Below are positions 37,317 through 43,749 of a DNA stretch of 46,596 nt, piece after piece (the first letter of the stretch is position 1; every line of letters begins with the position of its first letter). The DNA lies in assembly GCA_017465665.1 (NCBI GenBank), contig JAFTVU010000031.1, positions 1 to 46,596 of the forward strand, read 5' to 3'. The notes beneath the pieces are model-generated. The model did not search any database, had not been told where the DNA came from, and was given only the letters and a program-made list of their open reading frames with translations. This DNA comes from Oscillospiraceae bacterium (GTDB lineage Bacteria; Bacillota; Clostridia; Oscillospirales; Ruminococcaceae). Made by a program: the position numbers and the translations under genes.

Positions 37317-38663
37317 TTATACGATATCGTCAGCGTCAAAGGGATCGCCGCACTCGGGACAGAACTTGGGAGGATTCTTGGGATCCTCAGGCTCCCATCC
37401 GCACTTATCGCACTTGTAGAGAGGGGTACCTGCGGGCTTGGGCTTGCCACACTCGGAGCAGAACTTGCCCTTGTTCTGAGCGCCGCATGCACAGCTCCAG
37501 AAGTTTGTATCTGCAGGCTTGGGTGTACCGCAGTTAGCGCAGAACTTGCCTGTGTTATCTGTGCCGCAGCTGCACTTCCATGTACCTGCCGCAGGAGCTG
37601 CGGGAGCTGCGGGAGCAGCCTGAGGTGCAGGTGCTGCCTGCTGCTGAGCCATAGCCTGTTGCTGCTGCATTGCCATCATATTCTGAGCATTGAAGCCGCC
37701 TGCCTGCTGAGCCATGTTCATGCCCATGAAGCCCATCATAGCGCCGCCCTGATTGCCTGCTGCGATCTTCATTGCATCGCCCTGTGCCTCAACCAGATGA
37801 GCCATGCCCATATCAGCGTTGCGGTAAACTGCCTTACGCTGAAGATCGGTGATCATTGCCTGATCCTCCTTGGAAAGTGTAGGAGGATTCATGTTAAAGG
37901 ACTCGATATGCAGACCACGGAGCTCTCCCCACTTCTTGGAGAGGATCTCGTTAAGCGCATCGCAGATCTCAAGTGTGTGACCGGGCAGACCGCTGGGTCT
38001 TACGCCGAGCTCGGAGATCTTAGCAAGAGCAGGCTGAAGTGCTGTAACTACTTCGGACTTCAGTGTGCTGTCAAGAGTGCTTCTGCGGTATACATCAGGA
38101 ACATTTCCGCATACATTTGTATAGAACAGTACAGGGTTTGTGATACGGTATGTATACTCACCGTTGCAGCGCAGTGTAACATCCACATCCAGACCGATGT
38201 TCTTATCCAGAACACGGAAAGGAATGGGGTTTACTGTGCCGTACTTGTTATCAAGTATCTCCTTGGTGTTGATGTAGTATACGCGCTGATCACGTCCTGC
38301 CTCGCCGCCGTAGGTGATACGGCTGCCGAGATCCTTGAGGGTGTTTATTATAGCGTCACCGAGATCTCCTGCAAATACAGAGGGAGACATATCGGACTTG
38401 TACTCGAATACGCCTGCTTCAGCCGCAACCTCTACTACCTTGCCGTCTGCAACGATAAGAGCACACTGACCCTCGTTTACTGCAATGGCAGAGCCGTTGG
38501 TGATGATATTATCTGCGCCGTTGTTCGTACCCTTGCTGCCTACGCGCTTGCGAGCCTTTGCTGCAAGAATATCTGACGTAAGAGCGTCACAATAGATGTA
38601 TTCCTTATACTGATCCGCAAGAGTGCCGGATACTGCATTTAATGCTGCCTTGATTAATCCCAT
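37317..38663 (-). CDS. SPFH-domain protein with three C-terminal zinc ribbons
   Basis: This 448-aa protein is of the YdjI/virion-core-like SPFH group. Residues 1-about 320 hold the SPFH (band 7-like) scaffold, with KGTNNGADNIITNGSAIAVNEGQCALIVADGKVVEVAAEAGVFEY near 45-90. A Met/Gln/Ala/Pro-rich linker (about 322-357) leads to three zinc ribbons: CSCG...CANCG, CACG...CSECG and CDKCG...CPECG. In Bacillus the related YdjI (YdjFGHI system) is recruited to the membrane under envelope stress. No membrane span is visible, and no PspA-like partner gene lies beside it here. It has its own promoter and terminator. Confidence 0.88.
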   Translation of the reverse strand: MGLIKAALNAVSGTLADQYKEYIYCDALTSDILAAKARKRVGSKGTNNGADNIITNGSAIAVNEGQCALIVADGKVVEVAAEAGVFEYKSDMSPSVFAGDLGDAIINTLKDLGSRITYGGEAGRDQRVYYINTKEILDNKYGTVNPIPFRVLDKNIGLDVDVTLRCNGEYTYRITNPVLFYTNVCGNVPDVYRRSTLDSTLKSEVVTALQPALAKISELGVRPSGLPGHTLEICDALNEILSKKWGELRGLHIESFNMNPPTLSKEDQAMITDLQRKAVYRNADMGMAHLVEAQGDAMKIAAGNQGGAMMGFMGMNMAQQAGGFNAQNMMAMQQQQAMAQQQAAPAPQAAPAAPAAPAAGTWKCSCGTDNTGKFCANCGTPKPADTNFWSCACGAQNKGKFCSECGKPKPAGTPLYKCDKCGWEPEDPKNPPKFCPECGDPFDADDIV

Positions 38664-39011: not shown

Positions 39012-39054
39012 AAAGGAGTTGAGTTGTTCATTTATAAAGAACAACATATTGAAC
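39012..39054 (+). promoter_or_regulatory. Ribosome binding site separated from the start by a hairpin
   Basis: AAAGGAG (39012-39018) is 36 bases from the only suitable ATG (39055). Between them GTTGTTC (39023-39029) and GAACAAC (39039-39045) form a perfect 7-bp hairpin. If it folds, the effective spacing falls to about 13 bases. An in-frame TTG at 39019 is too close to AAAGGAG to be used. Confidence 0.5.
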
Positions 39055-40239
39055 ATGCATACCTTTTCTGATAAATTGATTACAGATTATGAGGAAAAAG
39101 CTAATCTCGCAATGGCATTTATCTGCCGCGCAATGATGCTTTTCATGTTGCTGGTCATCGTCCTCAATCTTCTGGGCGTATTCATTATTGAAGACACCAT
39201 TTATCCTGTTCTTATATTTTCAGCGGCTATCATGTTTGTGCCAACGATACTTTATAATTTCTTACATATAAATTCGATAACGGTGCGTTACATTGTTCTT
39301 ACGTTGTTCGTGATAATGTCAGGCATTTTGTATTCTATACTATCCTACCATGTGATAATGATGCTCTGCTTCCCTGTTGTTCTTTCCTGCCTGTACTGCG
39401 ATCTGAAAAGTGTAATATATACTTCAGCTCTTGGAATTCCTGTAATAATCGTATCACATCTTCTGTCTGCCTACTTCAGTGTCGTTCCCGACGAACCGTT
39501 AGTGGAACTTGAAGATATAATAGTATATGGCATATTACCCAGACTTATAGAATATATCGGATTTGTTATCATCTGCTGCAGTATGGCAAGAAAAATACAG
39601 AAGCTGATAAAAGGTCTTGCAGATAAGAACAATGAGCTTTATCATGAGCAGGAAGTAATAGTTACTTCCCTTGCTGAAATGATAGAAGCACAATCACACG
39701 AGACGGGTCAACATGTAAAGCGTGTTTCCGAATACACAAAAATACTCTGCACTGCTCTCAATATGTCTGATGAGGAAACATGGAAAGTCAGCAATGCTGC
39801 TGCCCTGCACGACGTAGGTAAGATAATGATCCCTCAGGAGATCATCAATAAACCTGGCAAACTTACCGCCGATGAATTTGAGATCATAAAAACACATGTT
39901 CAATATGGAAAAAAGCTGCTTGAGAAATCTTCAGGAGAACTGATGAGAGTATCTTCAAACATCGCACATCACCACCACGAAAAGTATGATGGAACAGGTT
40001 ACATGGGTATACAGGGTGATAATATCGATCTGTATGCGCGATGTGTATCTGTTGCAGATGTGTTTGATGCTTTGGTCAGCAAGCGACCTTATAAAAAGGC
40101 CTGGCTACCCGAAGATGCACGAAAAGAGATCGTTTCTCAGAGTGGTCGTCAGTTTGATCCTGTAATCGTAAAAGCATTTGACGATAACTACGATAAATTC
40201 ATAGAAGTGCTGAATAAGTACCCTGATTCTTACGAGTAA
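39055..40239 (+). CDS. Membrane HD-GYP domain protein (putative c-di-GMP phosphodiesterase)
   Basis: HD-GYP enzymes hydrolyse cyclic di-GMP to pGpG or GMP. The 394-aa product has six hydrophobic spans in residues 22-178, a short linker helix (180-200), and the catalytic domain from about 203. The HD residues are His252-Asp253 in AALHDVGK, with further ligands in ETGQHVKR (216-223), KTHVQYGKKLL (His281) and HHHHEKYDGTGY (305-316). The GYP motif reads GYM, a Pro-to-Met change that gives the domain a degenerate name motif while the metal ligands remain. The N-terminal membrane part probably senses a signal. The next gene encodes an EAL phosphodiesterase. Start choice is discussed with the hairpin upstream. 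Confidence 0.87.
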   Translation: MHTFSDKLITDYEEKANLAMAFICRAMMLFMLLVIVLNLLGVFIIEDTIYPVLIFSAAIMFVPTILYNFLHINSITVRYIVLTLFVIMSGILYSILSYHVIMMLCFPVVLSCLYCDLKSVIYTSALGIPVIIVSHLLSAYFSVVPDEPLVELEDIIVYGILPRLIEYIGFVIICCSMARKIQKLIKGLADKNNELYHEQEVIVTSLAEMIEAQSHETGQHVKRVSEYTKILCTALNMSDEETWKVSNAAALHDVGKIMIPQEIINKPGKLTADEFEIIKTHVQYGKKLLEKSSGELMRVSSNIAHHHHEKYDGTGYMGIQGDNIDLYARCVSVADVFDALVSKRPYKKAWLPEDARKEIVSQSGRQFDPVIVKAFDDNYDKFIEVLNKYPDSYE

Positions 40240-40412: not shown

Positions 40413-40497
40413 CAATATGATTATATATTAATAACACTTCTACACGACATTATATGTTCGGACGTTGTATAAATACTGATCTTAACGGAGGCTCTAC

Positions 40498-42594
40498 ATG
40501 GATAACAGAACGATCAATATGCTGTTTCTTGAAATGCTCTGCAAGCTGCGAAATATAGCAAGCACAGAGGAGCTGGAAGCATTTATCGCTGAATGCACAG
40601 TGAACCTGCAGAACGCCGAAGCTGCTGCAATGAGCGATATCCTGTCTGAATACAGGAGCATAGCAACCGAGCTTATTACCCAGCGCAGGCTGTTAAAGAA
40701 CATAGATACTTCTAACCATGCCGAGCTTACAGAAAAGGAACAGGAAGAGCTTGATGAAGCAAACCGCGTTATAGACGAAAATCTCTTTGATTACCATTTT
40801 CAGCCTATAATCAGTGTAGCAAGCGGCGATATCTACTCCTATGAGGCACTGATGCGCCCCCGCAGCAGTATCTGCCCCAGCCCTTTCCATATTCTTAAGT
40901 ATGCAGAGCTTTCCGATCGCCTTGATGATATAGAGCGTGTGACATTCTTTAACGTTCTTTCTATAGCGGAAGATAAAAAGTCTATCCTTGGAAAAAGAAA
41001 GATATTTATGAACAGTATTCCCGAAGCACGCTTTACAGAGGATGATCTGGCGCGTATAACCGAACTGCTGGAGCGTAATTCCGATACAGTTGTTGTTGAG
41101 ATGACAGAGGAATCCAAGATCACCGATGATTACCTTGAGCTGATAAAGCAGACCTATGAACGACTTAACATACAGGTCGCTGTTGACGATTATGGAACAG
41201 GTTATTCAAACGTTCAGAATCTTCTTCGCTATATGCCTGATTATGTGAAGATAGACCGATCGCTTATCAGCGGTATACAGGGCGATGCTAAAAAGAAGCA
41301 TTTTGTCCGCGAGATAATCGATTTCTGTCATGATAACAGTATCATGGCGCTTGCAGAGGGTGTGGAGACCTCGGAAGAGCTGCACACTGTCATTCATCTC
41401 GGTGCAGATCTTATACAGGGCTACTATACCGCAAGACCTGCCGCAGAGATCATAGATGCAGTTCCCTATGAGATAGCTCAGGAGATCAAATCCTGCTATC
41501 AGGAGCGTGTGGACGGCAGGAGGAAGCATATCTATTCTGCTGAGAACAAAGAGCGTGTTCTTCTTGACAGGCTGATGAATGATAAATATGACTGCATCCA
41601 GATCAATAAAGACTGTCCCGATGTTACAGTATCGGGAGAGATAGGGATGGAAACGCCCATACATATCGATATTAAAAAGGGCTACATCGGTACGCTCGTG
41701 CTGGATAACGCTATTCTTTCAAACATCAAAGACAGACCATGCATTGATATCGAGGATGACTGTGATGTGATAATTATCCTGAGCGGTCAGAATCGCCTCA
41801 GATACGGAGGTATACGCGTTCCGAAAAGCTCTAAGCTCACTATATGCGGCGACGGAATGCTTGATATCCATGTAGAAGCGGGTGCTTTTTACGGAATCGG
41901 CAATGATATCGATTCCGAGCACGGCGAGCTTATCTTTGAACAGGGTGTTGTTATACATAATTTTTCGGCATCCTGCGTAGGTATCGGTTCGGGATCGGGC
42001 GGCAAGATCGTGCTGCGCCGCGGCAAATTCGATATAGATATCCACAGCGCCTACGGCATCGGTATTGGCTCATACTCCTCCAACGCAGAGCTGGAGCTGT
42101 ATGCAGTTGATGTATCGGTCTACGGTGCGCTGGAACGCGGAGCGGCGGTAGGTACGCTTACAGGCTCGCTTCAGCTTAACGCTGAGCATTGTGCGCTTAA
42201 AGTCAGATTATCGGGTAAGGAGGTCGTTGGCTTCGGCTCTCTTTCGGGAGATAACTGTGATATCAGGATATGCGAAGCAGGTGCCAATGTGGATATTTCC
42301 GCTGATATCGCATCGGGCTTTGGTTCTATGAAAGGAAATACCATATTTGAACTCAGCCGCGCTTCCTCGGATATCAAGGTAACCGGTATCAAGGCACTTG
42401 CCATCGGCGGATTTGAGGGAAATACATCCATCACCACAACGTATGCAGATGTTTCAATGAAGCTGAATACACAGCTGAGTGTAGCAGATTATTTTAAACG
42501 TGAAAACATAAATGTTACAGGCGGCAGGCTTGATTTTATACTGAATGACCACCATGTGGAGGATATGGACGCGTTGTGGACTTCCGAGCAGTAA
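40498..42594 (+). CDS. EAL phosphodiesterase fused to a ~28-residue repeat solenoid
   Basis: This 698-aa protein lacks a signal peptide or membrane span. Residues 1-90 are helical. Residues about 92-325 form an EAL domain with every key position present: EAL at 116-118, Asn172 (FMNS), Glu201 (VVVEMTEES), Asp230-Asp231 (VAVDDYGTGYS), Lys251 (VKIDRS), Glu287 (AEGVET) and Gln307 (QGYY). It should hydrolyse c-di-GMP to pGpG. Residues about 350-690 are a repeat domain in which G-I/F-G-S turns recur every 26-29 residues (near 466, 495, 521, 550, 578, 607, 635), resembling the beta-solenoid of secreted GAGIGG-type proteins. This C-terminal fusion in a cytoplasmic enzyme is unusual. A promoter lies upstream and a propeller-like gene 24 bp downstream. 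Confidence 0.88.
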   Translation: MDNRTINMLFLEMLCKLRNIASTEELEAFIAECTVNLQNAEAAAMSDILSEYRSIATELITQRRLLKNIDTSNHAELTEKEQEELDEANRVIDENLFDYHFQPIISVASGDIYSYEALMRPRSSICPSPFHILKYAELSDRLDDIERVTFFNVLSIAEDKKSILGKRKIFMNSIPEARFTEDDLARITELLERNSDTVVVEMTEESKITDDYLELIKQTYERLNIQVAVDDYGTGYSNVQNLLRYMPDYVKIDRSLISGIQGDAKKKHFVREIIDFCHDNSIMALAEGVETSEELHTVIHLGADLIQGYYTARPAAEIIDAVPYEIAQEIKSCYQERVDGRRKHIYSAENKERVLLDRLMNDKYDCIQINKDCPDVTVSGEIGMETPIHIDIKKGYIGTLVLDNAILSNIKDRPCIDIEDDCDVIIILSGQNRLRYGGIRVPKSSKLTICGDGMLDIHVEAGAFYGIGNDIDSEHGELIFEQGVVIHNFSASCVGIGSGSGGKIVLRRGKFDIDIHSAYGIGIGSYSSNAELELYAVDVSVYGALERGAAVGTLTGSLQLNAEHCALKVRLSGKEVVGFGSLSGDNCDIRICEAGANVDISADIASGFGSMKGNTIFELSRASSDIKVTGIKALAIGGFEGNTSITTTYADVSMKLNTQLSVADYFKRENINVTGGRLDFILNDHHVEDMDALWTSEQ

Positions 42595-42618: not shown

Positions 42619-43749
42619 ATGAAGATATATTGCATAAGCGAGGGTGAGCTTCAGCTCGTAGAAAACGGAAAGAGCGAAAGAGTTGAATGCCAGCGTATCA
42701 CAAATTATCTTGAAACGCTGCAGAGGATGAAGCAGCGTGACGAGTGGAAGACCACAGGCAAGGGCGCTAAATTCATGCAGGTAGAGCAGAAGTATTACGG
42801 TGATGAAACAGCTCACGGCGAGCCGCTGCTGCGCTCTATCGGAAGCTATGGAGATAAGCTGCTGTACTGCACATTTACCGACGGAATGGGCGGAATGTAC
42901 CGCAAGGATACCGAAAGCGGCGATGAAAGCTACATCTTTGCAAACAAGGAATATGACCTTACGGGAATAGCAACAAGAAACGGAAAGTGTGTGCTTACCT
43001 GTGCAATGGGCAGATATGAACGTCATATCGGTATCGTGAACATGGAAAACGGCGATGTCACTCAGATAACAGAGGGCTTTACCAGCGAGACCCACCCGTT
43101 TATTTCAAGACGTGACAGCAGCAGGATACTCTACACCTCAATGGGCTACGCAAGAAACCAGAGCGGCGCTGTTGCAGAGAAGAGCCCCTGTTCCATCTGC
43201 TGTTATGATGAAAGCACAGGCTCTCTTGACGAGCTAATCGCCAACGATGACTTTGATTACATCAAGCCGTCAGATGATAAAGAGGGCAACATCTACTATA
43301 TAAAGAGAAAGTATGAGCCTACCAAACGCGAAAGCAATCTTTTTATGGATATACTCCTCTTCCCTGTCAGGATAGTGAGAGCAATAGGTGGATTTCTCAG
43401 CGTGTTCTCGATGGCTTTCGGTGGTGAGCCTCTTCGCACAGGCGGACATAACCCCGCAAAATCAAGGACTGCGGATGAGCGCGAGCTGTTTGTTGAGGGA
43501 AATCTTATCAAGGCGCAGAAGCTTTCGGATAACTCTGATGAGGGTATAATTCCATCGGATTGGGTGCTTGTAAAATACTCAGACGGTGAGGAAACTGTAC
43601 TGAAAAAGGGCGTTATGGATTACCATCTGACTGATGACGGTGATATCATATACTCAAACGGTAACGCGGTAAGGCTACTGCACAAGGACGGCAAGGATGA
43701 AAAGCTGTGTAAGCTGAAGCTTGCTAATTCCATCACGGTGATTGAATAA
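42619..43749 (+). CDS. Hypothetical propeller-like protein, co-transcribed with the EAL gene
   Basis: I do not recognise a named family. The 376-aa product has repeated short beta-strands with D/N-G turns (GSYGDKLLYCTFTDGMGGMYRKDTESGDESYIF, GIVNMENGDVTQITEG, SRRDSSRILYTS, KEGNIYYIKRKYEP, VMDYHLTDDGDIIYSNGN), which suggests a TolB/WD-like beta-propeller of about six blades. Residues 241-267 are hydrophobic (LFMDILLFPVRIVRAIGGFLSVFSMAF) and could touch a membrane or form an inserted helix. It starts 24 bp after the EAL gene with AAGGAG and is followed by a strong terminator, so the two genes are one transcript. A signalling partner role is an inference. Confidence 0.82.
   Translation: MKIYCISEGELQLVENGKSERVECQRITNYLETLQRMKQRDEWKTTGKGAKFMQVEQKYYGDETAHGEPLLRSIGSYGDKLLYCTFTDGMGGMYRKDTESGDESYIFANKEYDLTGIATRNGKCVLTCAMGRYERHIGIVNMENGDVTQITEGFTSETHPFISRRDSSRILYTSMGYARNQSGAVAEKSPCSICCYDESTGSLDELIANDDFDYIKPSDDKEGNIYYIKRKYEPTKRESNLFMDILLFPVRIVRAIGGFLSVFSMAFGGEPLRTGGHNPAKSRTADERELFVEGNLIKAQKLSDNSDEGIIPSDWVLVKYSDGEETVLKKGVMDYHLTDDGDIIYSNGNAVRLLHKDGKDEKLCKLKLANSITVIE

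Follow-up and report, generated by a model that had tools for sequence, protein, structure and literature searches.

What does a repeat domain of a kind known from secreted, adhesin-like proteins do at the end of a c-di-GMP phosphodiesterase that appears to stay in the cytoplasm? The question is raised by a gene of the window (the whole stretch of DNA that was analysed, 46,596 nucleotides), whose product joins an EAL domain to a long C-terminal repeat array, and which a sequence-only reading had singled out. The features of this gene and of its upstream neighbour are the following:

40498..42594 (+), EAL-solenoid gene: open reading frame with an ATG start, 698 aa plus stop
40487..40491 (+), probable ribosome-binding site GGAGG, read in the sequence 6 bases before the ATG
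40498..40761 (+), N-terminal segment, residues 1-88: without a Pfam domain, apparently helical
40762..41439 (+), EAL phosphodiesterase domain, residues 89-314: by Pfam, none of the ten checked active-site positions being lost
41440..41592 (+), linker, residues 315-365 (its end is an estimate): from the Pfam EAL end to the solenoid-like pattern
41593..42483 (+), putative beta-solenoid, residues about 366-662: by the lag-28 repeat, coil table with shuffles, and profile kinship
41893..42483 (+), seven clearest coils, with motifs at residues 466-635: by self-similarity and motif-run tests
42484..42591 (+), C-terminal end, residues 663-698: probably a solenoid cap, the tail being weakly conserved in alignments
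39019..40239 (+), membrane protein with an HD-GYP-type domain (HD_5): by Pfam, upstream and a possible functional neighbour

The closest relatives in the genus were four proteins of ~700 aa from four genomes, with 43-49% identity over most of their length.

The EAL enzyme itself is ordinary. Pfam EAL matched residues 89-314 of the window protein (E=5e-49, 167.2 bits against a cut-off of 31.3), and NCBIfam matches reached residue 344 at most. The sequence-only reading had held that the catalytic motifs were intact, and this proved true well beyond the window: the ten positions that we take to be those of the active site and the metals (E116, N172, E201, E204, D230, D231, K251, E287, E290, and Q307) were all present and did not vary in any of the 101 aligned EAL-solenoid sequences. 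They point to a catalytically competent c-di-GMP phosphodiesterase, probably of a distinct EAL subfamily.

The C-terminal half showed motifs of the type G-I/F/V-G-S/T/N at residues 466, 495, 522, 550, 578, 607, and 635, and its BLOSUM self-similarity peaked at lag 28 (z=4.33), a value reached in none of 1000 shuffles. In a control stretch, taken from the EAL part, z rose to 3.16 at best (lag 29); therefore, the lag test alone is not full proof, which came instead from the motif run, with seven motifs in register against a maximum of three in 10,000 composition shuffles. The ~28-residue array noticed earlier is thus real, with a spacing of 27-29 residues. Its extent had been placed from residue 330 onwards, across half of the protein; by an estimate from alignments, the solenoid begins near residue 366 instead, and residues 315-365 are linker. 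Residues 366-662 make up 43% of the protein and residues 366-698, 48%. Two earlier coils, at 414 and 438, also fit the pattern in the coil table and, counting the stretch from about 366, the solenoid is estimated at about 10-11 coils, those laid out being 24-29 residues long. No Pfam family matched the C-terminal half of the window protein (E up to 1), and the solenoid had no model in either Pfam or NCBIfam for the window protein, nor in Pfam for eleven EAL-solenoid relatives.

The origin of this domain was approached through its weak profile matches, most of which, when opened, were secreted-type proteins with GAGIGGG repeats. Among six of them, a signal-peptide-like start was found in all four whose start was in view, the other two being cut. 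An alignment of five secreted-type GIGG-repeat proteins matched the solenoid in hhalign at 98.8% (E 7.9e-17, 207 columns), and the match took in the GI-VP...L-I-GEG-L stretch near the helix start. Since it covers a stretch ahead of the regular repeats, it speaks for kinship more than for a shared rhythm, and the likeness to secreted adhesin-like repeat proteins that had been read from the sequence was borne out. Four of these five proteins were scanned, and Beta_helix_3 (PF18889) was found in all four (E 1e-8 and 9.4e-8, both above cut-off, 8.5e-5, and 0.0083), together with SLH domains in one; PF18889 gave no match to the window protein (E up to 1) or to the eleven EAL-solenoid relatives (E up to 10). 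By the profile comparison, the solenoid shares ancestry with proteins carrying PF18889, a family counted among fibrillar-adhesin stalk domains in the part of PMC8286594 consulted. Sequence and profile searches gave no significant match of the solenoid to a solved structure, those to arginase and others being chance matches, and because of this the fold is inferred from the repeats and the remote kinship: a beta-solenoid and, by kinship, probably a right-handed beta-helix.

Profile searches were then used to follow the domain across genomes, taking E below 1e-50 as a strong match; the resulting genome counts are lower bounds, because 5-6 candidates were scored per genome, and many genomes were incomplete. 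In the genus, a solenoid-only profile of 17 rows had strong matches in at least 18 of 43 genomes. At the level of the order, it matched in at least 32 of 394 sampled genomes (18 strongly, all in the window's family, and 14 weakly), and at that of the phylum, in at least 3 of 398 sampled genomes. With a wider profile of 41 rows, matches were obtained in at least 72 of the 297 genomes sampled from the family (61 strong and 11 weak, by our own count) and, for a second family in the class, in at least 30 of 348 (20 strong and 10 weak or cut). Among GTDB named contigs searched with an alignment of the EAL tail plus solenoid, both domains were present in all of the best 80 loci, a pairing that is partly built in because the query contained both; these loci included Ruminococcus flavefaciens, Eubacterium ruminantium, Lachnospiraceae, Saccharofermentans, and others, and many record titles (not counted) named rumen or other gut samples. 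Two EAL-solenoid genes, L134 and L139, lie on contigs labelled as Bacteroidales/Bacteroides MAGs; they group with Lachnospiraceae sequences in the tree, so that misbinning or transfer is possible.

Searches with the solenoid alone are less biased as to pairing. The strong matches were opened in all places except 38 of 77 in the window's family (own count) and 5 of 26 in the other family, and the EAL was found directly in front in 21 of 21 and 50 of 50 cases, the two sets overlapping. Among the 50, 49 showed a full EAL and one, cut by the contig end, its last 30 positions (L243, the same place as L209). Other places were less complete: L241 had a partial EAL, and L239 and L242 were cut by the contig end before any EAL. 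A solenoid fragment lacking an EAL inside its contig was found in L240 (2777-3352, minus strand; a frame of 192 aa). A different frame immediately upstream of it has residues that resemble GGDEF by eye, and the fragment has the appearance of a decayed remnant. Among the weak matches, L199 and L200 were EAL-solenoid proteins whose solenoid was cut by the contig or short. In L200 (1498-3360, minus strand), an EAL preceded by a GGDEF-like stretch (by eye) is followed by about 129 residues of solenoid before the stop, in a shortened or frameshifted form.

The EAL and the solenoid seem to have travelled together. Their distances were correlated over 94 sequences (Spearman 0.83), a single clade of solenoid-bearing EALs was not rejected in a tree test (p-AU 0.659), and the two domains were probably joined once. 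Loss of the solenoid nested inside the family was also considered and set aside: the free trees imply three label changes, yet the one-clade constraint fits no worse by that same test. In five EAL proteins of this kin, the chain ends 2-11 residues beyond the domain, with the ten checked positions intact, so the enzyme domain evidently can do without the solenoid.

The order EAL-solenoid is, as far as these sequences indicate, wider in Clostridia and less isolated than earlier supposed. The sequence-only reading knew of no described family with this order; this holds in that Pfam and NCBIfam have no solenoid model and no paper was found, and it needs amending in that the order is widespread in Clostridia. 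The literature search, which covered open-access articles, returned no paper on an EAL with a beta-helix or solenoid. PMC3584217 was considered as a precedent and rejected, as the beta-helix in the part of it consulted belongs to a different protein from any EAL protein.

The architecture in front of the EAL was variable. The window type, with a short N-terminus, EAL, and solenoid, was represented by 16 of the 80 GTDB proteins, with fewer than 150 N-terminal residues in view. The 64 longer N-termini contained (E up to 0.01) Peripla_BP_3 in 51, GGDEF in 29, GNAT in 2, and NUDIX in 1. A stretch resembling a GNAT acetyltransferase (by eye) was also present ahead of the EAL-solenoid part in L199 (451-1785, plus strand). 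A Kyte-Doolittle scan, which is crude, detected no membrane or hydrophobic segment in the window protein or in 78 of the 80 relatives, in agreement with the earlier statement that an export signal is missing. The two exceptions were L140, with a borderline N-terminal segment, and L106, with a segment inside the C-terminal part. L075 showed two apparent membrane segments (by eye); as they precede the EAL, the solenoid would stay on the EAL side of the membrane. The EAL-solenoid protein is thus predicted to be cytoplasmic, and its C-terminal domain is an offshoot, seemingly an intracellular one, of a known extracellular beta-helix kind.

The length of this domain was nearly fixed. In 70 of the 74 GTDB proteins uncut at the 3' end, 353-380 aa follow the EAL, the other four having 290-340 aa; over 94 sequences, contig-cut rows included, the quartiles of the solenoid span were 343 and 345, with a 5-95% range of 288-352. 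Across region 345-690 in 93 non-redundant sequences, the columns conserved at 90% or more were 16 Gly, 3 Ile, 1 Asn, 1 Val, and 1 Pro; lowering the threshold to 70% added Tyr 346, a linker residue, single Cys, Ser, and Ala columns, and further Gly, Ile, Leu, Pro, and Asn. No charged column was conserved at 70% in this region, and none charged or aromatic at 90%. The solenoid evolves faster than the EAL (median p-distance 0.70 vs. 0.49). Its dN/dS was 0.013-0.166 in five of six pairs, one of the five having a dS of 2.8 and the sixth pair being saturated, and that of the EAL was 0.016-0.060 in the four computable pairs, the pairs sharing sequences. By these measures, the solenoid is under purifying selection, and its surface drifts.

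Regarding the surroundings of the gene, HD-domain genes were found near the four close relatives of the genus, as well as in the window. Counted overall, they were present in 5 of 21 short-type loci (those four included) and in 3 of 73 others, the loci differing in length; because the linkage is weak overall despite the pattern in the genus, it is kept as a lead only. The motif GYP, presumably the usual one of HD-GYP domains, reads GYM in the protein encoded at 39019-40239. This neighbour represents a second type of c-di-GMP phosphodiesterase, and a functional link to the EAL-solenoid gene is possible. Downstream, the gene at 42619-43749 (+) encodes 376 aa with no Pfam domain (E up to 1); NCBIfam gives it a weak match to a TolB-propeller (E 0.00047, far under cut-off). 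Nearby, 37317-38663 (-) encodes an SPFH/Band_7_1 protein whose end weakly matches a double zinc ribbon, below the cut-off. Rfam detected only two tRNAs in the window. The assembly of the window showed 18 GGDEF matches (17 above cut-off), one PilZ match, and 10 matches to the window EAL part, one of them partial and another the window protein itself: many makers and breakers of c-di-GMP and few known receptors. Statements about this genome need caution, given a completeness of 97.92% and a contamination of 8.79%.

These data suggest an active phosphodiesterase whose solenoid would serve as a platform for docking or oligomerisation, a reading to which we give about an even chance. The sequence-only reading had wavered between a scaffold and a sensor; the evidence now leans towards scaffold or docking, short of proof. 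An exchangeable N-terminus (a short segment, a LacI-like sugar-binding domain alone or together with GGDEF, or a GNAT domain) would supply the input, and the EAL would hydrolyse c-di-GMP, the EAL-solenoid pair forming the constant unit. The solenoid, if rigid, would oligomerise the enzyme or dock it on a cytoplasmic partner or surface, and the docked or assembled enzyme would then remove c-di-GMP at a chosen place. Bactofilin-like cytoplasmic beta-solenoids polymerise through their solenoid ends. The domain shows no apparent sign of a catalytic site, and its constant length, structural conservation, and lack of family-wide pocket-like residues fit a platform better than an enzyme or a sensor of a conserved ligand. 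Several observations count against the platform. The fold itself has no significant match among solved structures, the solenoid diverges faster than the EAL, five EALs of this kin manage without it, and a solenoid fragment without an EAL exists. No neighbour family was common to most of the 94 loci (the largest clusters occurred in 21, 11, and 6 loci), so nothing there points to a docking partner, and conservation of structural positions alone would also be expected of a ligand-binding beta-helix with clade-specific sites.

The latter point leads to the main rival, a possible though doubtful one, in which the solenoid is a sensor that binds a cytoplasmic carbohydrate or other ligand and sets the activity of the EAL. 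The presumed beta-helix relatives attach to extracellular polysaccharides, a LacI-like sugar-binding domain is carried by the same chain in many relatives, and gut and rumen are named in the record titles, Ruminococcus flavefaciens and Eubacterium ruminantium being among the GTDB matches. The best solved-structure match to the solenoid was 4peu, which we take to be Cthe_2159, at a non-significant E of 0.045 and with the wide profile only, not the narrow one. Cthe_2159 proteins are described as beta-helices binding cellulose and acid/pectic sugars in the part of PMC6712302 consulted. Against this, the Pfam family of Cthe_2159 matched neither the window protein nor the eleven EAL-solenoid relatives, and an input domain is already present at the N-terminus in 51 of the 64 relatives with a long one. 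The residues of the solenoid speak against it as well, with no charged or aromatic column at 90%, the Tyr kept at 70% lying outside the domain, and a Trp share of 0.09% (the EAL has 0.05%, and five secreted relatives have 0.45%). Clade-specific sites are possible, since at nine positions (346, 415, 469, 480, 498, 538, 566, 643, and 651) a polar or aromatic residue was conserved in 13 or more of 14 short-type sequences.

Another alternative, which we consider unlikely, is that the solenoid only stabilises the protein or acts as a spacer, without a specific partner. It would agree with the fast divergence, with conserved positions that are mostly structural, with the five solenoid-free relatives that keep their ten EAL positions, and with the shortened forms (the four proteins of 290-340 aa after the EAL, and the 129-residue form in L200). 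Arguing against it are the nearly constant length, the purifying selection, and the fact that at least two families have kept the solenoid.

The protein could also be thought of as a c-di-GMP receptor of the LapD/FimX style, with an inactive EAL and the solenoid as its signalling output. Receptors are known among EAL proteins, and the degenerate ones lose some catalytic positions; a remote match to the LapD family was found in NCBIfam (52.4 bits, far under the cut-off of 1020). However, the test for such degeneration detected no loss at any of the ten positions in the 101 sequences, which makes this option very improbable. Least credible of all is an exported or surface-exposed solenoid, which the secreted look of the nearest kin outside the family (four with a signal-peptide-like start) would favour, and which is opposed by the cytoplasmic substrate of EAL domains and by the lack of membrane segments in the window protein and 78 of its 80 relatives.

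Beyond the platform itself, a broader and more tentative picture can be drawn, in which an adhesin-type beta-helix was domesticated inside the cell as a signalling domain of nearly fixed length. The c-di-GMP phosphodiesterase would act as an assembled or docked local sink. Gut and rumen Clostridia would have retained this module over a long time while exchanging the sugar sensors attached to it, and carbohydrate sensing would thereby be coupled to local removal of c-di-GMP. The usual basis for classifying enzymes of c-di-GMP metabolism is the N-terminal sensor. What stays constant in these proteins is a C-terminal repeat domain of ~345 residues, found together with a single EAL subfamily across many Clostridia of gut and rumen. 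The EAL-solenoid pair thus offers a handle on how one phosphodiesterase among many acts locally, and the assembly of the window, which holds relatives with and without the solenoid, makes a comparison possible.

Compared with known systems, the nearest counterparts without a solenoid are proteins of the same bacteria with the order LacI-like, GGDEF, and EAL, which share the EAL subfamily and the ten positions with the window protein and, unlike it, lack the C-terminal domain. Two such paralogues of the window's own assembly, L176 (G000:C3) and L177 (G000:C23), end where the solenoid would begin. As for the solenoid, four of the opened secreted GIGG-repeat proteins start with a signal-peptide-like sequence, whereas the solenoid of the EAL proteins comes without such a start, has a nearly fixed length, and is negative for PF18889; in Pfam, one of the secreted relatives weakly matched Cthe_2159 (PF14262; E 0.035). 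Finally, the EAL domain and the checked catalytic positions are common to the solved EAL phosphodiesterases (PF00563; 6ifq, BlrP1 3gfx, 4rni, and RocR 3sy8). The best stretches of the 47 solved EAL relatives all fell inside residues 54-344, none of them matching the solenoid, and what sets the window-type EAL apart from the solved enzymes is that its constant partner is a C-terminal repeat domain.
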